Part shown: in pieces, positions 1,706-43,690 of the stretch
Numbering within the stretch: the stretch's first letter is position 1
Layout: each line of letters begins with the position of its first letter
NCBI GenBank assembly: GCA_008360955.1
Contig: LUCM01008442.1
Span: 74,440 to 138,439, forward strand
Origin: Fasciolopsis buskii
Lineage: Eukaryota > Platyhelminthes > Trematoda > Plagiorchiida > Fasciolidae
DNA length: 64,000 nucleotides
Reading direction: 5' to 3'
The notes under the pieces: model-generated
What the model was told of the DNA's origin: nothing
Databases searched by the model: none
Seen by the model: the letters and a program-made list of their open reading frames with translations, nothing else
Made by a program: the position numbers and the translations under genes

Positions 1706-2883
1706 TACTGAATACTTCCGGCGAAATCCCCGTTGGTTTTGACATGATTATGAAAATAGTGTGATGCAAGGTGCAGAATTCAGTGTTTGGTTTTGCTTAT
1801 CCTTATCATATTTCATTAACCAACCGATGTTAATCACGATTGGTCACTATTATTCACTCTACCTCTGGCACACTCTTATGTAAATTCGGAACCTATTCCG
1901 AACATGCATCATGCTGAGCTCAAAGCCATGCTATTCCGTCGTCTGCAAATTTCTCCATCTGATTTATTTTCCTTTGGAATTTTTGTGTCAAATACAAAGC
2001 AGGCCTAGGACTAATTCGGACTGAATTGTCTAAGCACCGAGCATACCAATAATAAGTGAGAATGCAGATAGGCAATCAATGAATGGGTTTGCGGTATTTT
2101 GCGAAGCCCACCACTAATGGGGTGCAAATCGAGTTACGTGGTGTACCCTGTCCAATCACATTACACTCCCAACGAACTGAATAGCCCTAATTGTGTTTGG
2201 ACTTGAAACAGAGCCAAGACTGAAGCTGTTCGGACGCGAGATGATGCAGTCAGGAGTCGCGAAAAAAATCACAGCTGCTGAAAAGCATTTTAAGATCTGC
2301 ATAGAGCTTATCCGAATATACATATGCAACATAACCCAGTGTAATTGATGCATCACCTTCCGACCAACTGAAATCGTCGTATTTAGTCTTTGCTTGTACC
2401 TGCCAGTGCAGGGTCCATCACAAGCTTAACCTAACTGGCTTAGTTCTGGCTGGCCATTTGGAAGTCGGAGCGCACTGTAACACTTAGGTTCCAAGTAGAC
2501 TCACCACTAATTCACGGTGCGGATGGTTAACCTGAACAGTTAGATGTCTCTCTATCGCATGACGACTGTCAGATCATACTGTCTTGGACTGACCCAAAGG
2601 TGGATGGCGCTGTGTAGGTGGGCCAGATGGCATTCTGTCGGCAATAGGATTTTATCTGTATTTTTAACTAAAGAACAATGTTGTTACTCGAGTTTGCAGC
2701 AGTAAGAGATCTGGTGTGAATTTCCAAGTGATTCGCTGCCAGATCGTAAGGCTCAGTATGGCTCTACTTTAACATTTTTGCGTCCAAACAGGGAAGTTCG
2801 TCCTCACCCCCGAAAGTCGTTGATCTGGTATGTTTCAAAGTAGATTGCAAAATCCAATCATAGATATCGGCGCTATATCATAT
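1706..2883. other. non-coding stretch, nothing recognised
   Basis: Only short chance frames are present. The one minus-strand frame of 66 codons near 2156-2356 has no splice borders or domain character. Confidence 0.45.
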
Positions 2884-3112
2884 AGTGTTCATGTCCGATG
2901 AGCAGTTCACAATCAGCCCGACTTGCGTAATGGCTAAGGAGGTCGACTCGCAATACTTTGTGGCGAGTTGGGGTCCAAGTTCCAACGTGATCCATATTCA
3001 CTGCACATGATTTCCGACAACAATTACACAGCTGTTCGGTGCTTTCACTATTTCAAGTGTCAAGTTGGATGTTAAAACTACACCAGAATCATTTGGAAAT
3101 CCACATTAAATC
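2884..3112 (+). repeat. tRNA-derived SINE-like repeat, copy 1
   Basis: This 229-bp segment has a clear second copy of the same length at 43462-43690. The pair shares long blocks such as GAGCAG(T/C)TCACAATCAGC, followed by CGACTTGC(G/C)TAATGG, and CACATTAAATC near the end. In both copies TAATGGCTAAGG resembles a pol III A box. About 30 bp on, the second copy keeps GGGTTCGCGTCC, a B-box-like sequence, while this copy has the eroded TTGGGGTCCAAG. A tRNA-like head followed by a non-tRNA body is the structure of a SINE. The Penelope-like remnant begins just downstream. Confidence 0.55.
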
Positions 3113-9162: not shown

Positions 9163-12100
9163 CTAACTTAAATAGGGTAGGATACGCTTGATTAAAACAA
9201 TCCCCAAAAGAAGGCGAAGTAAATTTTGTGTGCGCCTGATAACCTTGTTTGCTATCTGAAAGATACCAAGCATTTCCAGCAGCTAAAGACTGAACGAGCT
9301 GCCTCTGCTAAAAAGAACAAATTTTGTCATTCATATTCACTGCATTATTTATACTGGATACGAGCTTAAAGAAAGAATATTCAAATCAAGTTACCATGCT
9401 GATTCAGTGCTCATCAAATTCACGATGCAACTGATCCACGTCAGGAATATGCAAAATTAATAAACACCAGGTGAATCAATGATCTAGCAGAACCTGTACT
9501 ATTCCCAAATACGGAGGCCAAAATCAAGGCCTGTTCTCAATCCTTATTGTTTGGTGGCAATTTTTTTTTACTAGATGAAAATTCCAGCTAGCGGCAACCT
9601 GAATTCTAGATCTACGGTCGAGCGGGTTCGCCACCATAAACTGTTGTCTCATTTTTTGCGCCGATGGTGAAAGCTGGGGGGGAGGTATTTTTCTAGATGC
9701 ATTACTGCAACTGATAACAGTAGTCAATTTATGGGCATTAGTGGATTCCGATATTTTGCATTAAACATTTTTAGGGCTGGAATGAGGAAAACCACTAAAA
9801 TTGATACACTTCGATCAACATAAACATCAGAAATGGTCACTGAATATTTCCGCTCTTGATATGATGATAGGATAGGCTTCAGACAGTAAAAATTAGATTC
9901 TGGTGAAATGCACCAATTCGGCATGTGCAAATGTAAGGAAAGTGCCGGGTATGCACACCTAACGAGAGGCAATAACAGCGAAACTGGTCGTCCGTATCTG
10001 GGTAGGTTTTGTTCACTCACCTAGATATTACAATATATATGTAAACGCATGTTCACATAAGACTTCGATTGTAGGTTGATACGAAGCCCACATCGAAAAA
10101 GCAAAACGTGCTTTTGTTAATTTTTCCCAACAATATAGTGTTCCTAAGCTCAAGTTTTGACGGTCTATAGGTTCTGCTCAAAACCGTTTGAGGCACTGAG
10201 ACCGACAATACTTTAATTCATCTGATAAGAAGACTAAAGTTATTAATTCAATTGACAATGAAATCGTAGCGTTCATCTTACTCTGTGATCCGGGCCGTAA
10301 TTATGTCTCGGATCAAATTAGAGATAAGCTAATCACCGCAACAATTGAGGCAATCATACGGAAAACATTTTCGGCCATTACTCCAGTAGTTGTTCAGTGC
10401 AGTTGGTTTTCTCGATGTTGGGGCTAACTCTACATTCAGCGGACTGTGATTAAGATTGTGCTTCGTTATGTATTATTTGTAGTCATATCTCCAAGGTTAA
10501 AATAATTTTCAAGGTGAGATTTAGATTGAATGCACCCAGCGAACCTTATCTCACCGCGGTTGAAAATCTATTTTGTCAATATCACAAAGTGAACAAACAA
10601 GCATCTAAGATTACTTGGAATGTCAGACTCAGATGCGTAGTGGAAGACCGCATTGTCAAAGAATACTATACCACATGGGGTAGATTTGATGTCTGAGAGG
10701 TTGATTCAGATGAAGAAAAACAAAGTGAAACAAAAGTGATGTTAATTATTAGGCAGTCCAATATAGTGTCCGCATCACCTGATACATTTGATTGACAACA
10801 CAACCCGTTTGCTGACAATTACGGGAGCAACGTATTGCTTACTCATGCCCTACTTTATTTATAAAAAAGGATGAATCTTCTGAAATAAAACGTTACTGCA
10901 GAGGGCGCGACTGTCTTCCTACAAGTGTCTGGTAGAAACTTGATTAGACCGAACACCACAACTGTTCACCTTCATGTAGTATGAGAGCCGATATTTGTAG
11001 GAGCATTCGTGACATTTTAACTAACAAAGATCATGCTAGTCTTGATGATCAAGTATGAGACACACTGATCCATATAATGTTTGTCGTTAAAATTTACCAC
11101 TCGTCTCTCTCAAGGTCAATGCGGCCTATCACCTGTCGACGAGGTTCGCCAGTTAGCCTATCGATCGGTTTTGTAGATGTACTGATCACTCTTCTGTCGG
11201 CTTAAATCCAGTTGACCTTGATTCTGGAAGTGGTGGTAAATCATAGACAATGACGCACCCGATACAATTACCTAGGAAGGTGAATTGTGAGCCTGGCTTG
11301 ATGCAACCTTTTACTTTATTCCTTCGTATTTTCCAGTCCTGATTTTCTAAATGTGGTCAGCTATTCTATTGTCACTGGGTCGTCTTCTTAAAACATGTTT
11401 TATGTTCAACTGTTTTGGATTCGTTTTCTACAACTACTGACCCTTTACACATGTGCTCTGATTTTCGTCGTTTTCTAGTGACCGTGGGTAATGGTGAATG
11501 AAAATTCCTAATAATATAAGTCAGACAACTCTTAGAGAAGCGGAAACATTGCCAACGCGACAACGCCATTCACTGCTGCAGTTAGCCATGTCCCCTAGGG
11601 TCACCACTCATCGCGTTGGGGGGATCTTGTCGGGCTCTGCGTCATTATCTGGCTGGACTTATTTTGGATAGTCCATTGGCTAAGGCTTTCGTGACTGTAG
11701 GCCAGATGATAAAATACCGAGCTCGATGCATTACCCAACCATTGCCGACGAAATCAATCTACGAGCATGCGTAACGCATGGCCTAATCAACTTAACCTGT
11801 TCAACTTCAGTGCTTTCCCAGTATGACTTTACTAGAACTATTACAAATGCGACTTCCATTCTGAGCAACTAAACAGAATTGGGGGGGATTCTTCATGTAC
11901 CATTAGTGATCAACTCAGTACTAAAAACCTCGGGAACACTTCCTGTTTCATATTAAACGGAAGTCATTACAAATACATATTTGCTGCTTCATCACCGTGG
12001 TGTAGACCCGGGACAAACGATCGTCAGTCGAATGTCATGGGTCTTAAATTATCGAAACTAAACGTTTGATCTGTTGAACACTACTATTGCATGTCAGGGC

Positions 12101-15100
12101 GCTAATATCCGCCAGTAAATGTTGAGGTTTAAGGATCAGTGTGCCCCAAGAAGTGGACTTCTTCTCGACTGGAAGTAGAGATTGGAACCTGACAGAGATC
12201 TGCAGCATACTAGTTGTCACGGTCAGCGGATTGGGGTTTTGAAATGATTCAGTACGACGTTCCAAATCGTAGTTTGGCGTCATTTATACCAACTGTGGAA
12301 CGACTTAATATTCTACTTACCTCTTTTTTACAATATGCTCGATACACGTAGTGCATTAAATACCATCTGACGGACAAAATGAGTCTTCTCCGATACATTC
12401 AGATAAGGAGGATTTGAAGGTAACTTAGTAGATCTTCTTTGCACACAAGCTCCCTGCAGCTATGTCATACACGAATGAATTGATCATTGTGAGTAACCGT
12501 CACTGGCCCCGAAAAACCAGTGATAGACGGGCACTGCACCATGTAACATTACATTTTAACAAACCACTGTTAGTTCAAAGGCGAAGATGTTCAACTAGCA
12601 GTCGTTTGTTCCCGGTTTATATCTCTGATCCGAAGCGAGAAATACGTGGTTATGCAATGTTCCCATTCTTTTCGACGGTCGTCTGGGAGTTGGCATTTCA
12701 CTAGATCATCAACTACCGAATGCTTAAAGGTATCCTCAAACGTCATGTGAATGAAATCACTGCCGGTATCCAGGTCTATTACAGACGATAATCACTGGCC
12801 TTGTATCCCTGTTTCTTTCGCAATCAACGCCCATCGGACGATGACTGATTCCATCCGGAAACCAGAAAATACCATTCATGCAGGTCACCGATTAGTAGGA
12901 ATTTTTTGTTGTTCTATCACATTGACTTACTTACCTTCTTCTACCACTTTTAAAGACTAACTCATATACACTGCGCGTCAATGAGTGCTTCGCTTAGTAT
13001 GGAAATAATCATATCAAATGGGCCTAAACAAATTAGATCAAATTTGGCTCTTTCATAAACGAACCGGATGGTGTTTGACTGCCCACTCCTCCGTTCGACT
13101 GCTCACTAATATAAACCTCGACTCAGTTCATTGAATTTCTAGGACAATTCGAATTGATCAGTAACTTGGGTGGCCAAAAAACGGGGTAGTTCACCATGGA
13201 AAATTCATCGAATTATTTTGGTTGTGATTTCAGTACCAATGGAAAATTGTAGTGCAGCCAGATTAAGCAGGCGACAAAAGGTCACCTTGTGTTTTCTTAC
13301 TCATTATACCAATTCCCATATTGATTCGGAACCATGTCAAAAGCATTCGAATTATCTCGACGAATATTCGAAAATGTCACCCAACTGGTTTATTGGGATC
13401 TCGGTTACATAAATCTGACACGAGATCCACTTTACCTAGGCACAATTTTTGTGCGCATGTGCTGTACGGTGCACCAATTATGCACTGCTGCACAATCTGC
13501 GAGTAAATTTACTTGTGAGAGTACTTGTGTAACGGAGGTGTGCTTTTAGTGCATTCCGAATTTTTTTGACAAAAATCCGGATAACTTCGATACAATTCCG
13601 AAATAACCCGGAAAACGGTCGGGTAGACCAAGAGCCGTGAAATCATGTAAATGGCAACTGGAAATTAACGTTCAACATTATCTTCAAACGATCCATTTCC
13701 ATTAGTCTTAACTGGACTTTGTTTAAATTCACTGGGTAATACAAACTGGTCTCGAATCATACTGAACTATGGTTGTCTGATCGTTCTCAATTTACTTACG
13801 AAACCTCATATTAGTACCCTTGATGGGGTATTTTAGTTAGTGCATTGCACTTATAAATCACTACACGGCTTTGTAAGGTTTTCGAGGTACACTCCTTGTT
13901 TACCACTCTGTTTTCGAATCCACCTCCAGATCGTTTCAGCTCTTCTGGGTGCCCAACTTCTTCGCAGTTACTATTTAGACGGCGACTTTCGCCCACTTTA
14001 AACAACAAGATATTTCGGGAAATACGTGAAACTTCCTGAACACCGAACTCGGGTGTTTTTCGGAGTACTTACATGTCACTTTTTAATCTTCGATCAGTGA
14101 CGTCCTGTGTAACTAGTCTGGTTCGGTGGCTCATTATGCACGTGACTAGGTCCCATGCCAAGCTGCATCAAACTGCAATGAAATCACCAACCCATCTTCA
14201 AATTTTCAAAATACTGTGATTTTTCAAATCCTAGTAATTTTCCACTCAACCCGTGCAGTTGTATTGACCATATTCTCTATTATTCATGTTTAGTTTTATT
14301 TCCCGCTGGAAACCTTGTACATCATACGGGACATTCGTTTATCCAAACTGTCCGCGAAATACCCGGTTGCGCCAAAATTCCCAAATTTGGTTAGTCAATT
14401 CTCACTGTCCAGTGCACGTCCAATTACAGACAACTTTCTATTCAAACTCGAGAGCCTAATGCTAGTTTGGGCTTTTTCCCGACTTCCTGTACCGTTGTCT
14501 TTTAGTAATCTGGTTTGTACCAAAGAGGGTGCACTTTAAATTGTTGCGCCTTAGTAATCTTTTGACAGGTCATACTTGTTTCAGTGAGCTTATTCAGCTG
14601 AATAACTCTGTGTCATACACCAAAATACATAACTTGAAAAAATCCATGATTCTTGCAACCTTCAGCATGACAATCTCTGTAAGTGCCACTCAGACTCCAA
14701 GACTCTGACCAAGTTCAATATGATTTCCTCAAAAACTGAGATGTACTATGACTGTCCTTATGACATAAGGCTGTCGTGCACAAGTGAACGAAAACGCTCG
14801 ATCACCGGCGAACATTTTCTGATTTAGGTTGTACTGATTCAAAGCATTTTCTTAGCACTAATTACGGTGTAACAGTGAGAGATTTTACCGCTGAAATGTT
14901 AGCTTGGTGCTTGCAAAAGCTCTAAAATACGGTACCACAAAATTCTGCTCGTTTTTTCCGGTACTGTAACTTAGGAAGGACACAAACAACAGGTCCCCAA
15001 AGGTCGACTGTGATCATTGGGTCTCACACATGTCTCAGATTTTTGTTCTTTAGACAGGCTTTTTTTGACATACTCGTGGCTGTTTGCCCTGCTATTGGAA

Positions 15101-22177: not shown

Positions 22178-22504
22178 CCCCATTCTGTTTTCAAAGACAA
22201 ACTTCTGCTGTGAAGAATATTTTCAAAATCGTTGTGCTTTCACTCGTATATATTTCAAATACTCATTCAGAGATACCATATAATATTATGTAATTTTTTT
22301 ATCCAGTACTGCCGAGTTCAAAGCATTGTTTTCATTGTAATATGAAATGAGAACTGTTTCTTCTACTACATTCTGAACATCCATGTTGCCAACTTTAGCG
22401 AATTCGATTAGTCGTCTCGTATCCCTCCAGATTGATAAAACAAGGACGACCAAAATGGTTTCTAGCCGGCTCGTACGGAGTTCGTTAGTTTTATTTAAAC
22501 TGGA

Positions 22505-22685
22505 TCTGCTTAGGTTGAAGCTCACTGGATTGTAAACACCGGCTGTGATAAACAAATAAGATTTTGGATTCAAAACATGAAGATCGCGGGTTCGAATCAT
22601 CGCAGCGACGGATAATCCTCCAATTTGTACGCGGTTATTGTTAAAATACAATGTACATTATCGTTTCACTAATAGGGGAAGTAAA
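22505..22685 (+). repeat. SINE-like repeat downstream of the Shisa-like gene
   Basis: CGGGTTCGAATCATCGCAGCGACGG near 22588-22612 contains a B box one base from perfect. The tail GTTTCACTAATAGGGGAAG matches the tail of the copy at 4600-4745. The long minus-strand frame over this stretch (22286-22651) is its antisense shadow and is not taken as a gene. Confidence 0.5.
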
Positions 22686-23010
22686 AGCGATGATGAGATG
22701 ATCATCTCGGGCTTATCATCTGTTTTTTATGGTTCAACTACCAATACAAAAGATCCCTTTACGATTCACACCAAACTCGGGTGAATCGCTAAATCTAATA
22801 TTGCAGTCCAACTCCTAGTGAACCAGATACGAACCTATCTCTAAAATGACCGCCGCAAAATAGTCTGCCAGTCGATTCTATATTCCGAATAGAAATCTCC
22901 TTCAGTAGGGAATGACCTAGGGTAACATACAAGTTTGCGAGTATGACAGCAGGAAAAGATTAAATGATCTCATCAAATAATTCACCGTGCGATATGATCT
23001 TTCAACTCAC

Positions 23011-23160
23011 TATTAAGATTGCATGGAAGCACTAAGCACTGTACAGCTGTTTCATCCTTGTTAGGAATAATCAGCGGTGCATATCCATTGAGAACCTGCC
23101 CGTTGGCGTAATTAATACCTAAGGTCATGTGCAAAGCCTTCGTCGCATTTTTCATGCTAT
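23011..23160 (-). CDS. 150-bp internal exon, unknown protein, with paralogous copies
   Basis: On the minus strand CTTCTCTGCAG (just above 23160) is a strong acceptor and GTGAGT (just below 23011) a strong donor. Between them lie exactly 150 bp, phase 1 at both ends, so the exon could be skipped or duplicated without shifting frame. It encodes MKNATKALHMTLG, NYANGQVLNGYAPLI, PNKDETAVQC and LVLPCNLN. I do not recognise the family. A diverged but in-frame copy with the same donor lies at the window edge (63942-64000), and noisier copies lie at 26.75, 27.22 and 28.13 kb, all in the same orientation on the minus strand. Repeated preservation of frame and donor suggests a real exon from a duplicated gene or domain. 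The GGCCGT-rich sequence upstream gives an artificial His-Gly run in the unspliced frame. Confidence 0.45.
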
Positions 23161-23198
23161 CTGCAGAGAAGTCATCAATCGGTCGGGGTCGACTGCTG

Positions 23199-23236
23199 TG
23201 CGGTAGCGGCCCGTGGCCGTGACCGTGGCCGTGCAA
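23199..23236. repeat. GGCCGT short tandem repeat
   Basis: Imperfect tandem copies of a 6-bp unit (GGCCGT/GACCGT), translated as alternating His-Gly on the minus strand. They lie just outside the acceptor of the 23011-23160 exon. Confidence 0.7.
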
Positions 23237-23308
23237 ATCAGTGACTGATAGGTGGAACATGATCATGTGGTGAATTTGAACAAACCGTTCAGAGCCGGTT
23301 CGGTACTT

Positions 23309-26300
23309 GGCTTGAAAGCTAGCGTAAGATTATTTCGTTTTTGTTTAGACTTCTTTTCTTCAATATAACCTAAAAAGTATAATGTAAATCACTGTTGCAA
23401 TATGACCGTTAATTTTACAGTGGTCAAATAGTAAGGAATTACAATAACCAGTCAATGCGGTCTACCGAAACCAGTTGTTTTTGTAGATTCATCATTGGAA
23501 AACAGTAATTTTTACTTTATATTCGGCGCAGAATGAACACTTCCACCGATCGAAATTGTCACTCACGGTACGCCGAGAACGTCGACTGATTATCATCCAT
23601 CTTTTTCGTATGATGTTTGGCTGCCGAATAGCAAACAACACCGCACATATGTTACCAATCGATTGACTCACCACACCAAGATGCTGAACAGCCCATTGCT
23701 TGGTATGGAATTAAGTCGAAAAACAAACGATTTTCGGGGTGATTTGATTTGGAGCCTTTTCGTTGTAATCAGATCGACTGCATTCTCGCTTCACCCGCGC
23801 GCTCCGTTCAGGGCTTTACTGTTCCGAATTGGATAACACAGTCACTTTGGCCGATAGTGAGCAACACGAGCGTACAATCACCCGAACGTGTCAGGTGGGA
23901 AGTGGTTTGGTTGTGCAACAAAAACTTAGGACGCCCGGTTGCCGTCAGTATCTGTCGCCGAACCAGCGCCCACATCGTTGCCTCATCAGCCTTGGTTGTG
24001 TAAGATGCTACCCCTGTGTCACAGCATGTTCACAACTATTCAGAGATCCACGGACACGGAAACTAAGAGGCATGTCAGATGAGCATAATGACAAGCAGCC
24101 ATTGGCGATCCTATCGATTGGAGTCACCATGGGTCTTTGTTGCTGCTTGCTTGCTGCAACCCTTTTGACGGATGGAGAGAGAGGTTAGTTGCCAACGAAT
24201 AAACCACTTTTTCGGGACCAAGAATTAAGTGTGGTCATTGTTACTATATTCTGTTGATTTTTCATTGTGAGTCAAAGGTAACTATTGCCAAACCGGGTTG
24301 AGCAATGAGGAACTTGATGAAAGTTGGATCGGGAATTCGTTTGAGAACTTTGACCCGACTCACTGACCACCGTAAATATGTTACTAATTTCTTCGTCAGA
24401 TATTTGTGTGTTATGTTTAACCTGGTGAGAGACTGAACTTCGAGGTCCAGCTACGTGAACCTCGGTTTTGAATTTTTAACCACCTAAAGATAAGGTCATG
24501 AAATTCGGAAAGCACACGTCTTTTGCTGTTATTGAGCTACCACCCTGTTTGTCATGATCTGGGACTATTGAGATCTTTGGCGAATTCGGTTAGTTCATGT
24601 TTCACAGAAATAGGAAACGTTGTTTATGCAACGGGAACGAAAAGCTTCGAGGATTTTTCTGATGCTTATGTCCAAACAGTTTAGATGCGACGGCTGTACT
24701 TTGTGCCCGTTCCTACAGAGTGGCGGTTAGTTTTCTAACTTATTTTACAACCATGTTAAGTCTATGCGTCACTGCATGCTTGTCATTTCTATACCTCTGT
24801 TTTTCTATGGATTTCCCTCATGTTTCTCACGTTATCAGTGGCTTAGTTTCTAATTGGGCTACTTTAATACTTGCGTCAGCATTGTGTCGTGTTTGCTGTT
24901 ACGTTAACTCTGCATATTCTGATAGTTGCCTTTTTCATTTCTCTCGCTCTCATTTTTACTGTCATATTGTCTATATTTCCTAAGGTTTTAATAGCATAAC
25001 TCAATCGATATTTTCAGTTAACAACCCGATTCATTAAATTTCGATTTCGGCATGGTTTTTGCCTATCTCTTGACTGTGATTGCTGCTTTCATGATCAACC
25101 CGGTGCAGACACTGTCTAACAGGCTTTCAGTGAGTAATCACAAAACCGGCCCCATTTCGTTATCATTCCGATAGGCATTTGTGCACAGCCTTCAAACGTC
25201 TTGCCCGTGGATTTTATCTCTGTTCCTAATCTGAGCTAGTTGCGACCTGTCTATTTACATCACTTCCACCAACAACCGAAGAATATGTTCTGTCTGTATT
25301 TGGTATTCTTCTGTGATCATTGAACCACCTGCGTGCAAATTTGAGATTCCGAAAAATATCTGTATTAAGCGCCACTACTAAAAATCCTTGCTAGTAGGCA
25401 GGACCGACTTAAGAACAACATGAAGTCGGCCTTAGGAGGGGACTGGTAGTTGATGCTCCCTTTTGCCTGCTGTTTGTCGCCAATTGCCTTATATTCTAGT
25501 CTACTGAATGAGGATGACAATCAGTTGGCTTCGGTTCTTCAGCGTACTATTAGGAATCTAATTTTGCTCACTGAAGTGATACCGTTAACCTTCCGTGTCA
25601 ATTTGTTAAAGTTGTGTCTTGACGGGAGAGCGTGCTAGAAATCTGCTTTGATATGCTAATCAGCGATTCACGCAACAAACACTGAAGCTTCCTGACTGTG
25701 AATGCAGTTTAGCGGAGGAGTTGCTTACTCTAAACCTTAGTGTCAGGGTGTGGAAAGGTCCGCAGATTTTTTTTCGACTACTCGTCTACAGTCTTTGTCA
25801 TTCGGCTGGCGCCCTATGGATATCCGGCAACCACCTCCCTGAAATATTGTTGAACTGTATTTATATCAACAAAGGTAAAGCGACTTAACGGACGGATCAG
25901 AAGCTACGGATCAGTATTTTCGGAGCCGCAATGGGAATCAGTTTTTGCTCTTCATTGAGCTAGTAATTCAGGTCATGATTGTTTAACTTCTTTCAATGCA
26001 TACCGAAATTGCCCAAGTCGTTACTACCAACTTTGTTAGGCAAATTCGTCTTTCGTTTACCAGCTAACGCTAAAATGATTCTTTCCAAGCTGTCGGGTTG
26101 TCCACTATTCACATTAAAAAGCATATTACGTACTATTTAAATTTTGGTCGGAATTCAAGGGGCAACAGAAACGGCAGTGGTAGAATACCATTTTGCCTTA
26201 CTATTTTCGCGATTTGAGTCTTACGTTTCTGTCAGCCGATGAGTGAACCCCCGAAATTTTTGATTTTATCAAGCTACTTATTTCCAAGTTGCACTATAAG

Positions 26301-26812
26301 TCAAATTTCGGATTTAGCGAGTTCAGGGGAACTGTTTGTTCTTCACGTTCTGACTGTAAATTAGACCGCGTGTGTTAAACGAGTTTGATGATAGTACTGA
26401 CATCGTCACCCATGGCGCTACTCCCTAAATTTGAAAATGAAAACTGACTCGTTGATAAACATGGTACTATAAGCGTTGCAACACATTTCCACATGTAGAT
26501 CCGTGTCGTCCGTCATTTGGTTCCTTCATTCCAAGCTTATCGGATAAGCTACCACCTTGATTTTTCGCTCAACTAGTAGTTAGAGGATAATCTGGAAATG
26601 GTCAAAGCAAGTAGGGCTATTATGCATCCGATCCTGCAGAAGGTGCGTGAGAGTCACCATGATCAGACTGCTAGTTGAGTTGGTCTGGTGATGACAGAGT
26701 CAATAAATCTGTACGAAGAAAGTGTTAGTAATAGCAAAAATGAATGGCTCATCAAATAATTCAGCGTGTGATATGATTCTCTCAAACTCCCTATTAAGAT
26801 GTGCCATGGAAG
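23309..26812 (+). repeat. 3.5-kb segment, left copy of an inverted duplication
   Basis: Almost all of this stretch reappears in reverse complement at 28213-31550, and its end (26020-26812) also reappears directly at 27443-28189. The copies differ by many single-base insertions and deletions, often in homopolymers, plus substitutions. The left boundary coincides with the end of the block around the 150-bp exon. The inner end carries a further, degraded copy of that exon. The differences look more like uncorrected long-read errors than old evolutionary divergence. Confidence 0.7.
23829..24188 (+). CDS. possible exon with membrane-like segment, unknown
   Basis: A frame of about 119 codons contains a Cys cluster (CLISLGCVRCYPCVTAC) followed by a hydrophobic segment (LAILSIGVTMGLCCCLLAA) and a GTTAGT donor-like site near 24183. 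Cysteines before one hydrophobic helix could mark a small membrane protein. A competing frame is also open over the first part (23749-24003), and in the inverted copy (30700-31110) both frames are broken by indels. I cannot name a family. A chance frame is about as likely as an exon. Confidence 0.2.
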   Translation: MDNTVTLADSEQHERTITRTCQVGSGLVVQQKLRTPGCRQYLSPNQRPHRCLISLGCVRCYPCVTACSQLFRDPRTRKLRGMSDEHNDKQPLAILSIGVTMGLCCCLLAATLLTDGERG

Positions 26813-27432
26813 CACTAAGCACTGTACAGCTGTCTTTTCCTTCTAGGAGTCTGATGGAGCTAGTGCATATGCACCCGATGCCCGAACTGGGACCACGGAA
26901 ACCGGCAAGTAATATAGACTGTTTTCAGTCGGACGCCTTTCATTCGTAAATACGTACCGAACCGGTCTGAACGGTTTGGTTCAAATTCGCCACTTTGATA
27001 CATGTGTTCCATCCTACTCTAGTCACTTGATTTGGCACCGCCACGGGCGCGCTACCGCACAGCAAGTCGACCTTCGGGACGCGGTAGGATGACTTCTGCG
27101 TGCATGACTAACACGATCGGCTAATTCCACGGATATTGTTGACACATGACCTTAAACAGAGCTTGCCCTACTTGGATTGTATGTTCGTTCTGATGGTGTA
27201 GGGTAGCAGATTGATGTTCTCAGTCAAATAATTCACCGTGTGATATGTATCGCTCAAGGCTGACTATTAAAGATTGCATGGAAGCACTAAGCAACTGTAC
27301 AGCTGTTTTTCTTCCTTCTTTGGAATCATGAGCGGGCTGCATAGTGCACGTGCCCGAGATCTGGGACGCGGAACCCGGCCGAAGGATCAGACTGATTTTC
27401 AGTGCGAAGCCGCTTGCCATTATGTAAAGTAC
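26747..27432. repeat. degraded tandem copies of the exon block next to the gap
   Basis: Starting at 26747 and again at about 27222 the sequence repeats CAAATAATTCA(C/G)CGTGTGATATG and GGAAGCACTAAGCA..CTGTACAGCTGT, which also mark the 23-kb exon. The two starts are about 475 bp apart. Between them, 26954-27085 reads the reverse complement of about 23310-23180 (CCGAACCGG, GAACGGTTTG, CTACCGCACAGCA). Forward, inverted and forward pieces in a row beside a sequence gap point to fold-back at a contig end. Confidence 0.55.
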
Positions 27433-27442
27433 NNNNNNNNNN
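27433..27442. other. assembly gap (10 N)
   Basis: Ten Ns join two contigs. Coding frames read through the gap are meaningless. The true distance is unknown. Confidence 0.98.
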
Positions 27443-28189
27443 GTTACTACCAACTTGTTAGCAAATTCGTCTTTCGTTTACCAGCTAACGCTAAAATAGT
27501 TCTTTCCAAGCTTCGGGTTTCCACTATTCACATTAAAAACATATAAGTACTATTTAAAATTTGGTCGGAATTCAAGGGGCAACAGAATCGGCCAGTGGAT
27601 AGAATACATTTGCCTTACTGATTATCGCGATTGAGTCTACTTTCTGTCAGCCATGAGTGAACCCCGAAATTTTTGATTTTATCAAGCTACTTATTCCAAG
27701 TTGCACTATAAGTCAATTCTGATTAGTCGAGTTCGGGAACTGTTTGTTCTCACGTTCTGAGGTAAATTAGACGCGTGTGTTAACGAGTTGATGATAGTAC
27801 TGACATCGTCACCATGGGCTACTCCCTAAATTTGAAAATGAACTGACTCGTGTAAACATGGTAACTATAAGCGTTGCAACACATTCCACATGTAGATCCG
27901 TTCTCGTCATTTGGTTCCTTCATTCCAAGCTTATCGGATAAGCTACCACCTTGAATTTCGCTCAACTAGAGTTAGAGGAAATTCTGGAAATGGGCAACAA
28001 GTAGGCTATATGCATCCGATCCTGCAGAAGGTCGTGAGAGCACCAGATAAGACTGCTAGTTGAGTTGTCTGGTGATGAAACTCAATAAACTGTACGAAGG
28101 ATAAGTGAGTAATAGCAAAATGAATGTTCTCATCAAATAATTCACCGTGTGATATGATCTCTCAACTCACTATTAAGATTGCATGGAAG
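27443..28189 (+). repeat. left arm of a perfect 747-bp inverted repeat
   Basis: This arm is the exact reverse complement of 28213-28959 as far as I compared it. The two ends are equidistant from the centre with no net indel. It is also a direct, diverged copy of 26020-26812. The arm begins at the first base after the gap, so it may be longer in reality. Confidence 0.85.
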
Positions 28190-28212
28190 AAACAGCTGTA
28201 CAGTGCTTAGTG
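28190..28212. repeat. 23-bp spacer at the centre of the palindrome
   Basis: The 23 bases continue the right arm only. They are the reverse complement of what follows GCATGGAAG in the 23-kb copy (CACTAAGCACTGTACAGCTG, then TTT). So the right arm is complete up to the turn, while the left arm stops 23 bases short. Confidence 0.8.
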
Positions 28213-28959
28213 CTTCCATGCAATCTTAATAGTGAGTTGAGAGATCATATCACACGGTGAATTATTTGATGAGAACATTCATTTTGCTATTACTCACTTA
28301 TCCTTCGTACAGTTTATTGAGTTTCATCACCAGACAACTCAACTAGCAGTCTTATCTGGTGCTCTCACGACCTTCTGCAGGATCGGATGCATATAGCCTA
28401 CTTGTTGCCCATTTCCAGAATTTCCTCTAACTCTAGTTGAGCGAAATTCAAGGTGGTAGCTTATCCGATAAGCTTGGAATGAAGGAACCAAATGACGAGA
28501 ACGGATCTACATGTGGAATGTGTTGCAACGCTTATAGTTACCATGTTTACACGAGTCAGTTCATTTTCAAATTTAGGGAGTAGCCCATGGTGACGATGTC
28601 AGTACTATCATCAACTCGTTAACACACGCGTCTAATTTACCTCAGAACGTGAGAACAAACAGTTCCCGAACTCGACTAATCAGAATTGACTTATAGTGCA
28701 ACTTGGAATAAGTAGCTTGATAAAATCAAAAATTTCGGGGTTCACTCATGGCTGACAGAAAGTAGACTCAATCGCGATAATCAGTAAGGCAAATGTATTC
28801 TATCCACTGGCCGATTCTGTTGCCCCTTGAATTCCGACCAAATTTTAAATAGTACTTATATGTTTTTAATGTGAATAGTGGAAACCCGAAGCTTGGAAAG
28901 AACTATTTTAGCGTTAGCTGGTAAACGAAAGACGAATTTGCTAACAAGTTGGTAGTAAC
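28213..28959 (-). repeat. right arm of the perfect inverted repeat
   Basis: Exact reverse complement of 27443-28189. It contains minus-oriented Y-segment sequence and no convincing gene. Confidence 0.85.
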
Positions 28960-31550
28960 GACTTGGGCTAATTTCGTATGCATTGAAGAAGTTAAACATC
29001 ATGACTGATTACTAGCTCATGAAGGCAAAACTGATTCCCATGGGGCTCCGAAAATATGATCGTAGCTTCTGATCGTCCGTAAGTCGCTTTACCTTTGTTG
29101 ATTATATAAGTTCACAATATTTCAGGGAGGTGTTGCCGATATCCATAGGCCACCGAATGAAAGACTGGTAGACGGTAGTCGAAAAAAATCTGGGACTTTC
29201 ACACCCTGACCAAGGTTTAGAGTAGCACCTCCTCCGGCTAAACTGCATTCACAGTCAGGAAGCTTCAGTGGTTTGTGCTTGATCGCTTGATTAGCATATC
29301 AAAGCAATTTCTAGCACGCTTCTCCCTCAAACAACTTTAAAAATGTGACACGGAAGGTTAACGGTATCACTTCAGTGAGCAAAATTAGATTACCTAATAG
29401 TTACGCTGAGAACGAGCCAATGATTGTATTTACTTGGTGACTGATATGGATTGGCGACAAACAGCGGCAAAAAGGGAGCAGCAACTACCAGTCCCCTTCC
29501 TAAGGCCGACTTAATTTGTTTTAATCGTCTGCCTACTAGCAAGGATTTTAGTAGTGGCCTTATAATGATATTTTTCGGAAATCTCAAATTGCACGCAGGT
29601 GGTTCATGATCACAGAAGAATACCAAATACAGACAGAACATATTCTTCGGTTGTTGGTGGAAGTGATGTAAATAGACCAGGTTCGCACTAGCTCATTAGG
29701 AACAGAGATAAAATCCACGGGCAAAATTTGAGGCTGTGCACAAATGCTATCGGAATGATAACGGAATGGGGCCGGTTTTGTTGAATTCCACTGAAAGCCT
29801 GTTAGACAGGTGTCTGCACCGGTTGATCATGAAATGCACAATCACAGTCAAGAGATAGCAAAAACTCATGCCGAAATCGAATTTAATGATCGGTTGTTAA
29901 CTGAAAATATTTCGATTGAGTTATTGTCTATTAAACCTTTAGGGAATATAGACAAGATTATGACAGTCAAAAATGAGGGATGCTGAACAAAATGGGAATA
30001 AGGCATACTTTCAGAATATGCAGAGTTAACGTAACAGCAAACACGAAATGCTGACGCAAGTATAAAGTAGCCCAATTAGAAACTAAGCCTGATAACGTGA
30101 CGAAACATGAGGGAAATCCATAGAAAAACAGAGGTATAAAATGACAAGGCATGCAGTGACCAAGACTTAACATGGTTGTAAAATAAGTTAGAAACTAAAC
30201 GCTCACTCTGTAGGAACGGGCACAAAGTACAGCCGGTCGACATCTAACTGTTGGACATAAGCATAGAAAAATCCTGAAGCTTTTCGTTCCCTTGCATAAA
30301 CAACGTTTCTATTCTGTGAAACATGAACTAACGAATTCGCAGATCTCAATAGTCCAATCATGACAAACAGGTGTAGCTCAATTATACAGCAAAGAGTGTG
30401 CTTTCGAATTTCATTGACCTTATCTTTAGGTTGGTTAAAAAAATTAAAAAACCGAGGTTCACGTAGCTGGACTCGAAGTTCAGTCTCTCACAGGTTTACA
30501 ATCATTACGAAGATTAGTAACATATTTACGGTGGGTCAGTGATCGGTCAAAGTTTCCAAACGAATTCGATCACTTTCATCAGAGTTCCTCATTGCTTCAA
30601 CCCGGTTGGCAAATAGTTACCTTTGACTAACATGAAAAATCACAGAATATAGTAACATGCACACTTAATTCTTGGTCGAAAAGTGGTTTATTCGTTTGCA
30701 ACTAAGCCTCTCTCCCATCCGTCAAAGGGTTTCAGCAGCAGCAGCAACAGACCATGTGACCCAATCGATAGGATCGCAATGGCTGCTTGTCATTATGCTC
30801 ATCTGATCATGCCTCTTAGTTCCGTTGTCCGTGTTGATCTCTGATTAGTTTGTGACATGCTGTGCAAACAGGGGTAGCATTTACACAACCAGGCTGATGA
30901 GGCAACGGATGTGCGCTGGTTGGCGACAGATACTGACGGCAACCGCGTGTCTACAGTTTTGTTGTTGCACAACCAAACCACTTCACTGACACGTTCGGTG
31001 ATTGTACGCTCGTGTTGCTCACTATCGGCCAAGTGACTGTTTATCCATTCGGAACAGTAAAGCCCGACGGAGCGCGCGTGAGAGAGAATGCAGTCGATCT
31101 GATTACCAACGAAGGCTCCAAATCAATCACCCCGAAAATCTGTTGTTTCGAGCTTAATTCCATACCAAGCATGGCTGTTCAGCATCTTGTGTGGTGAGTC
31201 AAACGATTGGTAATCACTATGTGCGTGTTTGTTTGCTATTCGGCAGCACAACATCATAGGAAATGGATGATAATCAGTCGACGTTTCGGGTACCGTGAGT
31301 GACATTTCGATCGGTGAAGTGTTCATTCTGCGACAGATTCATAAATAAAAATACTGTTTTCATGATGAATCTTACAAAAACAACTGTTTTCGGTAGACCC
31401 ATTGACTGGTTATTGTAATTCCTTACTATTTGACCACTGTAAATTAACGGTCATATTGCACAGTGATTTACATTATACATTTTTAGGTATATCTGAAGAA
31501 AGAAGTCTAAACAAAAACGAATAATCTTACGTAGCTTCAAGCGCCAGCTC
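28960..31550 (-). repeat. diverged inverted copy of 23309-26019
   Basis: Read in reverse complement it follows the left copy base by base with frequent indels. Examples are the pair at 24010-24185 versus 30705-30890, and AATAATCTTACGTAGCTTC near 31530 versus GAAAGCTAGCGTAAGATTATT near 23320. Homology ends at about 31550, at the same boundary where the left copy begins. Beyond it the sequence is unrelated to the left flank. Confidence 0.75.
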
Positions 31551-33460
31551 ATGAGGAATAGGTATTGATCAAGCAACACAAATAATACCTAAGTTTGGAG
31601 ATCCATTTGTTTTTCCGGCGGGTGCACGGCAGGATTAGGCTGACAAGAGCTTGATTCACAGGGGCAACTTTTCATCGCAGTTTTTCATATCCACCAAAAT
31701 ATTGTGGTTCCATCCAGCTTACTAAGTCGGACTGCGACTGAACACAGGTAACCGTGCCATTCTGCTCAAGTTAAATATATTTAAACTTGTCCATGTTTTA
31801 AGAAAATCATTAAAAAATGTTTTTAGCCATTAAAAGTGCCCTGTTAAACTGTCCACTATCCCGCATAGTGCAGCTAACTCAAGTTTTATTAAATTTTGAC
31901 CAAAATAAGTATTCGCTCAGTGTTCATTATTATACCTCTAAGATCAGGAAAAATTTCAATCAATTTATCCTATTCCCACCGGAGGTCAGTGTGATTGTCA
32001 AGTTATTCTTAACCTCAAAAGGCTGGAGAACAGGCTTGTACCTAACGCAGATTCCGTTCTTTACGGGAGTCATATTATCGCTTATGAGCATTTGGGTCTC
32101 ACCTATTCGATACGGTTAGGTTTATAGAAACGTGTCCTGGAATGAAATGAAGGCGCAGTTATTGGCTAAAATCACAGCAATTGTCAACACACTCAATGGT
32201 GACGAAGCTAAGTTGACGGATCACGTAATTCATCCGTGACTTATACATTTGCGGTATACTTTGTTCGAAAATTCGTGGTTATCCAGCTCATGGATGTTAA
32301 AAACAGCAGGAATCTAATGAACGATAAAAAATCAACGACCAAATAATCAAGTGTTACAGACGAGGAGGGAACTGTACGTTTGTTTCATTTAATTTGGCAA
32401 AAGTGACACAACAGAGACAGAATTTGTGTTTACAGTCAGTCTTATTACACTTTTAAGTTTTTTTTTATAGTCAGAAGCACTAGTCGGTTTCCAAACTGAA
32501 CGTATTTTTCATTGGACCCCAGAAATGGAGAGCTACGCCAACACTATATCGGGGTATGTGAGGCTTTCTGTAGAATGTACTGAGAAACCGGTCTTCAGAA
32601 GCAACTTGACTACCCTGAAAAGCATCATAGCCAGATAACTAACACGAGCCCGGAGAGGGCGTCAGTCCGTCGACAACCGTGGGAAGCAATGAAGCCAGTA
32701 GGACGACCACGTGTTTGCACGCCACATAGGTGACAACGTATTTGATCTGCTCATTGACCAACAAATTTTACTATCTCCTCACGCATATGAGCTCTAAGAG
32801 CTTACATGTGATCCAACGAAAGCCAATGTTCTGTCTTTAGAATGTTGTTATTCGCGTGACCAGAGGGACCATTGCGAAAATTGTTAACAATGGGTCCAGT
32901 TGAATTTCACGTGTGACAATCTGTTACTGTATGCATGCATTTGCAATCTGCTCCAGTGTAGAATAGATTGTGCACAGATATGAAGGCGGCTGCCTCGAAA
33001 ACGTGATGCATTAATTAGTTAGAAACCCGAGACCCGGATGATTCGTAACGGAATACCAATTATTTGGTTGTGATCTGTGTGTGATTATTCGGGTGTACAA
33101 ATACGCATTTTCCTAATCGTGGCTTTCTAAAGATGAAGGGCAGATACTACCCGTTTTCACACAATAGAGGAAGATTCTTGTTCTTCACTCTCTCAGATGT
33201 GAACAATCACCACAACGTTCCAGTATTCGTGTATGCAAAAAACAAGATTTTTTCAAATCGCTATTAGGTTTTATTTGGTGAGGTGTGGCAAACAAGAAGT
33301 CAAAGAATACACGATGGGATTTATTTTGGATTCGTCCTGACCCACTGAACACAAATGGTGATGGGTTTTTGTAGTAGTGTGGATTAACTGCCATGTTGTA
33401 TACCCATTACACATTGCTTCACGAACTTACCTCGACGAGGTAGACAAATAAAGAAGCGAA
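31551..33460. other. no recognisable gene
   Basis: Frames such as 31817-32119(+) and 33185-33394(-) have no domain or paired splice borders. A run of eight T lies near 32460. Confidence 0.45.
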
Positions 33461-41101: not shown

Positions 41102-43461
41102 CTCGTGGGACCATAAAGCGGATTCGAAGGCAAGCCTATTTTCGGTTATTCGGTTCTCAAGTTAATGCAATCACATTCTACGTGAGAATTAGCCGATAAC
41201 TTTTTCGTTAGGAAGGATAACTTGGATTGTATGCATATGAGTTTGCATAACTAGGGCGGTTTTGTACCGGTTGGTTGCTAGATTGTGGTGTCACCCACGC
41301 CTAGAGGCGTCGGCCTTTTGATCGCAGAAGATGGTAGGCTTGAATTTATCTTCTATTCGCGTATAAAGCTGATTTCAAGAGACGAACAGCAGTGGCTTTG
41401 TGGTGGGCTAAAGAATTACAGCGTATTCGCACAGGGCGTGTATCACCACGTGACACTGAGTTAATACCGGAAAGCATTATAGATAATTATTTGCGACTAC
41501 GCGCTTCAAGGAGTTCACGGGATTTCGGCTCTCGGCTGTCCAGGGTGGCCTTCGGTGAAAAATCCTGATATCCCGGACCCGTAGACTTCATTGCGCGTCC
41601 TGCGGCTTCACCATTTGTCGATAACCGAAACCTTGTTGCTTTTGACGCACATTTTGCGATACATTAGATAACGTAAGAGGTTAAATGAGCCCCGAATTAG
41701 ACACCAATTTCGACCGGTTGCGTAACAAGAACCTCCGGTGTGGATGACCTTGATTGATATTTGGTGCTAGCTGTCGGACTGTAGTCGCACCACAGGCGCA
41801 CTGGAATCAATAAAAGGGGAATAGTGAGGTCACCAGGAGAACGGTCTCTCTCTGCCGTTCCAGAATCAATCTAGATTTTGTTTATTAGCGAAACGGTCAG
41901 TGCTCATTTGTGAAAAAATTAGCGCGATTGTCCTGAACCAATACCACAAGCCTTAATGTCTGACCCAAATTTGGATGAACGAAAGAGCTCAACCTTTGTT
42001 TCATGCTCGTTACCCACTGTGTGATAGTAACTGTTGACATATGATCCCATTCTTAATATGTACTGCTTTTCCTCTCACGAGAGCTTTATATCGCCCCTAT
42101 GAATCGACTCCCTATGTGACTTTCCAAAACATTTTCTTCTATCCAAATCGTCTACACCCATTGTTCGTCTTTCCAAACACACCACCTCTTGGTTCACTCT
42201 AAAAAGCTATTTTCTTTGACAATCAACCAGTACTTATCCAGAAGTACACGTTCTTCCTGAAAATCTGCGTTGTCTGAATTGACGGAATCCTGTGAGGATT
42301 GGAATAGTGCGACTTAGTAGGTCAAAGACCATAATTGCATGGACTGAACCGTTCGAAATAAATGTCACGGAGTACCAGCATCACCATTTCCTGGTCCTTC
42401 TCTCCAGCTTGTTATCGACAGTCAGCTGCATGTCCATTCAGCTGCTCTCTGTCGTTTTGGAAGGATCAAAGCACTTTATATCGGGTAATTCCACAGCTCG
42501 ATTTTCACTTAGGGTTGTGGCATTTCGACCGCAAGCTAATCGACTTTCTTCTAAGTGGACATCAATTGACCCCAAATGGACGAGATAAGAATTGGGCTGT
42601 CAGACTGCGAAAGGCATCAGTTGAAAAGTATACTTGGTTTCCGTTGTTAGTGCAACGGTAGGTTCCATTGCATAAACCAGCACCTGAGTTGGTTTTAACG
42701 AAATCTTCTTAAGTGAATATGTGCAATCTCTGGTTCACATACAATTCACAAAAGCTCTGTTCTGCAAGGCGGTGTAGTTGTGTTGACGGCAAGCGCTCAG
42801 TAATGCTGAGAAAACGAGGCATCTCTTAGCATTGTCAAAATTTACCCCATTGTATTAGTCAACGTTCTACTGCCAATATCAGCTCCAAATTCTCTTTCCA
42901 GTGGGAACGTAGAAAACAATGCTTCCTTTTTGTAACCCTTGGCATTTTTTCTAGAGTCTTCCGGTCATCCCTGTTTGCTCCAATAAACTGTTCAGGTTAA
43001 GTATCTTCTATTTATAACCTAATGTGCATTGTGTTCCTCTGTGGTTCACTCTCTAGAACGGCCACTGAAACCAAGTAGACTAAAGTGGTTGGAGAATGCT
43101 TTACACTTGCCTTGCCCCTAATCCAAGGGAGGAAGTACCTGGACGATGAATCGAAGTGGCAAGTTGATTACATGGTGTTAAGGTACCAAGAACTTACCCA
43201 ACGGAATGACTCATGTAGGTTTATTTAAACGTCCTGGTTGGAGGCCACGAGGGCCGCCCAATAGACATTTGAAGACAGAAAATAATATGGATCAACTCGC
43301 AATTAATGACATCCCTGGATTCAAAATATTCTTTCTTTTATATTGCTCTTCAACGTACTACAGTACAGTTGATCTTCCAGTATCTCTAAAGTACTCTTCA
43401 TGCAGTGTCAACGTCCAACTTGACATTAAAAATCGTGGAAGAACCGTGCAGTTGCGTAATC
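41102..43461. other. no recognisable gene
   Basis: Two overlapping plus-strand frames (42292-42588 and 42362-42661) are open, but no domain, signal or paired splice sites support either. Near 42000-42200 the plus strand is unusually pyrimidine-rich. Confidence 0.4.
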
Positions 43462-43690
43462 GTGTTCATGTCCAATGAGCAGTCCACAATCAGCCCGACT
43501 TGCCTAATGGCTAAGGCCTTCGACTCACAATGCTTCTTCCCGGGTTCGCGTCCTAATTCCGGTGCGATCCATATTCACTGCCCATGATTTTCAACAACGA
43601 TTACGCAGCTGTGAAGTGCTTGCATGATTTTCAATGCCAAGTTAGATGTTGACGCTGCATGACGAATCATTTGGAAATTCACATTAAATC
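43462..43690 (+). repeat. tRNA-derived SINE-like repeat, copy 2
   Basis: Same family and same 229-bp length as 2884-3112. Here the head is better preserved: TAATGGCTAAGGCC (A-box-like), then about 30 bp to GGGTTCGCGTCC (B-box-like), followed by GTGCGATCCATATTCACTGC in the body. Confidence 0.6.

Follow-up and report, generated by a model that had tools for sequence, protein, structure and literature searches.

False duplications at assembly gaps arise from overlapping contigs that are left unmerged. Here we describe a 747-bp inverted repeat in a 64,000-nucleotide stretch of the trematode Fasciolopsis buskii (GenBank assembly GCA_008360955.1, contig LUCM01008442.1; positions are those of this stretch, hereafter the window, which corresponds to C4972:74440-138439 of the 703-Mb assembly of 6974 contigs). 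On the sequence, the palindrome is very probably an assembly artefact that is absent from the genome; it is most likely a false contig end, and its noisy neighbour a misplaced patch of raw read. It resembles false gap duplications in that perfect copies of otherwise single-copy sequence adjoin a gap, a pattern that recurs at other runs of Ns in the assembly. The palindrome's copy is inverted, whereas those at C4972:222148 and at locus L030 are direct; an inverted parallel is found at C4972:7550-10764. Siameric or missed-adapter PacBio reads and fold-back chimeras, as portrayed in passages of PMC4580222, PMC6218980 and PMC12870357, likewise present an inverted self-copy with a short centre, but in the palindrome no adapter was found, the centre is asymmetric, and the arms are free of read errors. 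Long-read gap filling of the PBJelly type also leaves read sequence beside a residual gap; one passage of PMC4580222 describes a 20-bp gap 'overfilled' with 779 bases, ascribed there to structural variation. Unlike such gap filling, the patch described here seems to lie reversed and repeats 3.4 kb of the adjacent sequence.

The palindrome comprises the following elements, in which U denotes one of two dispersed repeat units, U and V, labelled for this report.

27443-28189, + strand: left arm, presumed to be a false, mirrored contig end; 0 mismatches in 747 against the reverse complement of 28213-28959.
28213-28959, + strand: right arm, part of the presumed genuine clean locus and continuous rightward with otherwise single-copy sequence.
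28190-28212, no strand: spacer of 23 bp between the arms, AAACAGCTGTACAGTGCTTAGTG, whose minus-strand reading is the natural continuation of repeat U.
27433-27442, no strand: ten-N gap, the only N run of the window, taken as a placeholder between overlapping, unmerged pieces.

Each arm is 747 bp long and the two are identical at 747 of 747 positions; the identity ends both outward and inward without an extra base, and the first base of the left arm directly follows the ten Ns. An exact match of this length cannot be chance. Unique flanks joined gap-free to both arms, as a genuine palindrome would have, were not found, since the left arm meets the gap and has no flank. A third copy (26020-26812, 793 bp) runs in the same direction as the left arm, and its alignment to that arm contains 724 identical positions in 803 columns, 13 mismatches, 56 extra bases and 10 missing bases (net +46). 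The initial annotation had reported the perfect arms, the spacer, the position of the left arm at the gap, and a third copy with a net indel difference of about 46 bp, and all of these were recovered here.

The mirror similarity is wider than the arms, which the initial annotation had missed: the reverse complement of 28185-31542 recurs as 23310-26840, with 88-89% identity. The sequences involved are as follows.

28185-31542, + strand: clean sequence whose noisy reverse copy is the patch (alignment to 23310-26840).
23309-27432, - strand: patch of raw long-read sequence, apparently inserted inverted; a reverse copy of 28185-31542, followed by repeat units U1, V reversed, and U2.
26748-26937, + strand: repeat unit U1 in the patch, passing the fold point unfolded.
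26954-27154, - strand: repeat unit V, reversed, in the patch; a 74% match to 23120-23306 reversed.
27204-27432, + strand: repeat unit U2 and tail in the patch.
22957-23308, + strand: clean end of the left contig in the dispersed repeat (U0 then V0), aligning to C4972:191930-192293.

Raw PacBio continuous long reads (CLR) carry about 10-15% errors or more, with insertions the commonest and mismatches the fewest. With the 3358 clean bases of the right-hand copy, 28185-31542, used as template, 23310-26840 was found to have 263 bases inserted (7.8%), 90 deleted (2.7%) and 42 mismatched (1.25%), which is the CLR order of insertions over deletions over mismatches; 164 of the 263 extra bases are the same as the neighbouring base. 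Clean repeat pairs compared with each other (four comparisons, among them the left end of the right-hand copy against three other clean copies) showed 4-8 mismatches and 0-2 indel events. For the two repeat copies inside the patch, alignments of 112-125 columns held a similar 5-6 mismatches but 7-8 indel events. The noise is limited to the patch, and the palindrome arms are clean sequence. For raw PacBio reads, an accuracy of 80-85% is given in a passage of PMC4580222. The profile of 23309-27432 thus looks like that of a single uncorrected CLR read.

The orientation of the patch was assessed from the repeat at either end. The left contig, whose end differs from C4972:191930-192293 by 7 mismatches and 2 indel events over 364 aligned columns, stops at 23308 inside the repeat, at CGGTACTT. 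In the scaffold stretches examined, all four other V copies with CGGTACT lead into AATGGCAAAGGCGTTCGACTG within about 10 bases; after 23308, the window enters the mirrored sequence rather than AATGGCAAAGGCGTTCGACTG. Read backwards from 27432, as reverse complement, the far end of the patch begins GTACTTTACATAATGGC / GTACTTTACATAATGGCAAGCGG; its alignment to the repeat starts at C4972:192288, overlapping the left-contig stop at 23308 by 6 bp in repeat register. Because its reversed far end continues the repeat that is broken at the end of the left contig, the patch appears to lie backwards. If reversed, it would seemingly extend the left contig, cross the repeat and enter the right contig; as placed, neither of its ends seems continuous.

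The patch is also the only independent sequence over the fold point in the assembly, and it is unfolded there: 26801-26900 passes the turning site of the palindrome without turning. When the patch was compared here with three natural copies, it agreed best with that near C4972:45920. The fold junction, GCATGGAAG beside AAACAGCTG, was searched as a 25-mer and occurs once in the 703-Mb assembly, namely here, which rules out a fold copied from elsewhere in the assembly, although a place missing from the assembly might have been its source. In the sequence examined, AAACAGCTGTACAGTG stands at 31 other distinct sites, preceded by AAGGA(A/T) at 31 of 31 and by GCATGGAAG at none. Units U and V occur at many places, either paired in inverted orientation or in tandem with a unit length of about 392-404 bp; the sequence of the spacer is an ordinary part of the repeat. 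A fold-back through 5-bp microhomology (GGAAG/CTTCC) was first suggested by the copy near C4972:54470, in which AAGGAAG precedes AAACAGC, and it did not hold up. GGAAG is present at the site in only 1 of the 31 copies examined, and the patch fits the C4972:45920 copy (AAGGAAA before AAACAGC) better than the C4972:54470 copy, with scores of 106.5 and 52 that are affected by differing flank lengths. No microhomology is therefore claimed at the fold.

The copy number of the mirrored sequence was determined by searching the assembly. With the left arm as query, the best 40 of 721 candidates were scored, and among these the body of the arm was found at three places only, that is, both arms and the patch; the other 46 of the 49 matches listed all lie within query positions 651-747, in the dispersed repeat. 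The query 28960-32400 yielded three candidates, all of which were scored: itself, the patch (88%), and one 116-bp match of 72% that lies elsewhere and involves query bases beyond 31542, so that no further copy of 28960-31542 was found in the assembly. Identical copies (0 differences in 747) of a sequence with no other body copy found are what a false duplication leaves.

Given that the left arm begins at a gap, duplications at other N runs bear on its interpretation. We surveyed 258 kb of C4972 for exact matches of at least 700 bp and found five, which represent four duplicated pairs (two of the matches form a single pair that one mismatch interrupts). Three of the four pairs adjoin an N run exactly, against a chance expectation of about 0.0005 abutting ends. 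An added sample of ten 5-kb stretches, picked for U/V copies, yielded three more runs of at least 10 N. Besides the palindrome, the duplications are as follows.

C4972:7550-8685 and 9629-10764, no strand: inverted pair of 1136 bp, whose right arm ends exactly at the N run 10765-12439.
C4972:220901-222147 and 222158-223404, no strand: direct duplication, 1247 bp exact, adjoining both sides of the ten-N run 222148-222157.
L030 111-717 and 886-1492, no strand: direct duplication, 607 bp exact, on either side of a 168-N run.
C4972:12631-14440 and 22470-24279, no strand: inverted pair of 1810 bp with one mismatch (exact matches of 907 and 902 bp), 191 bp from an N run.

Four of the seven runs of at least 10 N adjoin a perfect non-satellite duplication of at least 600 bp, two inverted (1136 and 747 bp) and two direct (1247 and 607 bp), and both ten-N gaps in the examined sequence carry an abutting perfect duplication. 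The palindrome included, a copy ending exactly at a gap edge is thus a fault shared by several gaps. The direct duplications at C4972:222148 and L030 are probably overlaps that were never merged. In the palindrome at C4972:7550-10764, the outer 1136 bp are perfect and the inner arms of about 470 bp carry 27 mismatches and 7 gap positions, a combination not easily reconciled with a real palindrome whose parts are equally old. The N runs in L025 and L027 adjoin tandem-array copies; loci L031-L035 contributed no additional N run, L031 repeating the palindrome's own gap. A second stretch with CLR noise lies beside a gap at C3481:24680-26392, inverted relative to the clean array, and its errors (L025 3381-4997) amount to 14.5% extra, 3.2% missing and 2.0% changed bases.

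Two further observations were made in the same survey. The members of the 1810-bp inverted pair lie about 8 kb apart, and the outer 62-65 bp of their alignment are weakly alike on each side; the pair may be either a young mobile element or another assembly duplication. Single Ns occur at C4972:2908, 65905 and 70036, L021 2541 and L024 2624, several of them in or beside short repeats or palindromes, and these are possibly joins of a different kind.

Collectively, the evidence is best explained by an artefact of two layers, which is very probable. The right-hand contig would truly reach leftward to about 28190, where it lies in a dispersed repeat rich in inverted copies, and from there its end would have been continued by 747 bp of its own reverse complement, giving a fold-back contig end. 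A single uncorrected, PacBio-CLR-like sequence (23309-27432) would have been placed, reversed, between this end and the left contig, which ends at 23308 in another piece of the same repeat, and we propose that ten Ns were entered as a placeholder since the pieces share sequence rather than meet end to end. The false arm may itself have recruited the read in the wrong orientation, as 26020-26829 of the read is a direct match to 27443-28203 in that arm. The order of events, the gap-filling step and the role of the ten Ns are reconstructed, and the fold may have originated in a chimeric read or template switch, or in an error of the contig graph.

Several points weigh against this account. Fold-back reads can be scarce in PacBio data: the part of PMC12870357 that deals with them reports practically none for HiFi and 0.03% for Iso-Seq, neither of which is CLR. 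By our estimate, chance alone could produce the 6-bp register in a few per cent of cases in a repeat unit of about 400 bp. Reversing the patch leaves the left arm in place, so the left arm needs a second, separate error. The noisy stretch in C3481 belongs to a repeat array, a setting in which copies may be inverted naturally. The effect is missing at three of the seven N runs, one having nothing abutting it and two standing at tandem-array (satellite) copies; some of the longer N runs (936, 1675 and 2097) may be something other than assembly gaps, and the ten 5-kb stretches are not a random sample, having been chosen for the U/V repeat.

The initial annotation had favoured a single long read that folded back, through a missed hairpin adapter or a template switch. 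On this reading, both arms would come from one raw read with a missed SMRTbell adapter or a library hairpin. The annotation's view of an assembly artefact at a contig end, with a fold-back and a noisy long read, stands; that one folded read explains both is very unlikely. The arms agree at all 747 positions while the only raw-looking sequence here has about 12% errors, and because two raw passes carry independent errors, one noisy fold-back read cannot yield two error-free arms. A siameric read would also carry a central adapter, and the 45-nt SMRTbell adapter was not found anywhere in the window when up to 3 mismatches, but no indels, were allowed; with error-free arms and no such match, a missed adapter was rejected. 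Moreover, the fold leaves out 23 bases of the left arm and is not symmetric about an adapter, and few PacBio fold-backs are reported in the relevant part of PMC12870357. Arm identity excludes raw passes; an error-corrected fold-back read is possible, and it merges with the two-layer artefact.

The other alternative is a real, recent palindrome, formed by fold-back repair of a broken end or by template switching at the repeat, as an inverted duplication that spans 747 bp or more, perhaps as much as 3.4 kb. It would be a very young fold-back inversion seeded in the U/V repeat that broke the assembly, possibly confined to one haplotype, with the patch read from the other. Short inverted repeats have been described as sites of fold-back, the zero divergence of the arms suits a very recent event, and the U/V repeat makes natural inverted pairs elsewhere. 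PMC11724301 and PMC7999016 bear on such a mechanism, and the insertions treated in the former are mostly 5-34 bp long. If such an inversion were real, the U/V repeat family would act as a hotspot from which palindromes arise in this genome; the inversion is, however, extremely improbable, as the left arm ends exactly at the gap, the outer boundary at 23308 is the break of the clean contig inside the repeat, the reversed patch end completes that broken repeat, the only independent sequence passes the fold point unfolded, and perfect duplications elsewhere also adjoin N runs, two of them direct rather than inverted.

Some features of the window and of the repeat were recorded in addition. No tandem array lies at the palindrome site. 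Clean tandem arrays of U/V were found at L028 1241-4513 (C6157) and L029 2247-3693 (C1781), with a unit of about 392-395 bp and copies more than 99% alike; the L025 array has a unit of 404 bp. U and V contain a stretch that we take to resemble a tRNA, and ARAGORN detected no tRNA in the window. The window gave no Rfam family at the gathering score, and no Pfam family at an E-value of 0.01 for 8 of the 10 stop-to-stop frames of at least 110 amino acids, the other two frames being 22982-23329, which overlaps the V0 repeat, and 23769-24188, which lies within the noisy patch. At 2882-3112 and 43459-43690 the window has a direct repeat of about 232 bp with 80% identity, unrelated to the palindrome. 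Elsewhere in the assembly, C753 carries a COX1-like piece; the 120 of 2275 matches listed for it include many weak relatives, mostly at coverage below 60%, and no close named one, and the piece seems to resemble flatworm sequence.

Taken as a two-layer assembly artefact, the palindrome is a warning about this assembly more than a piece of biology, and it should not be read as biology. Ten-N gaps seem to mark unmerged overlaps, and raw-read stretches persist beside gaps and can lie backwards. Palindromes and segmental duplications called from such assemblies may accordingly be false, and a simple screen for perfect repeats with an end at a gap edge would flag false duplications.
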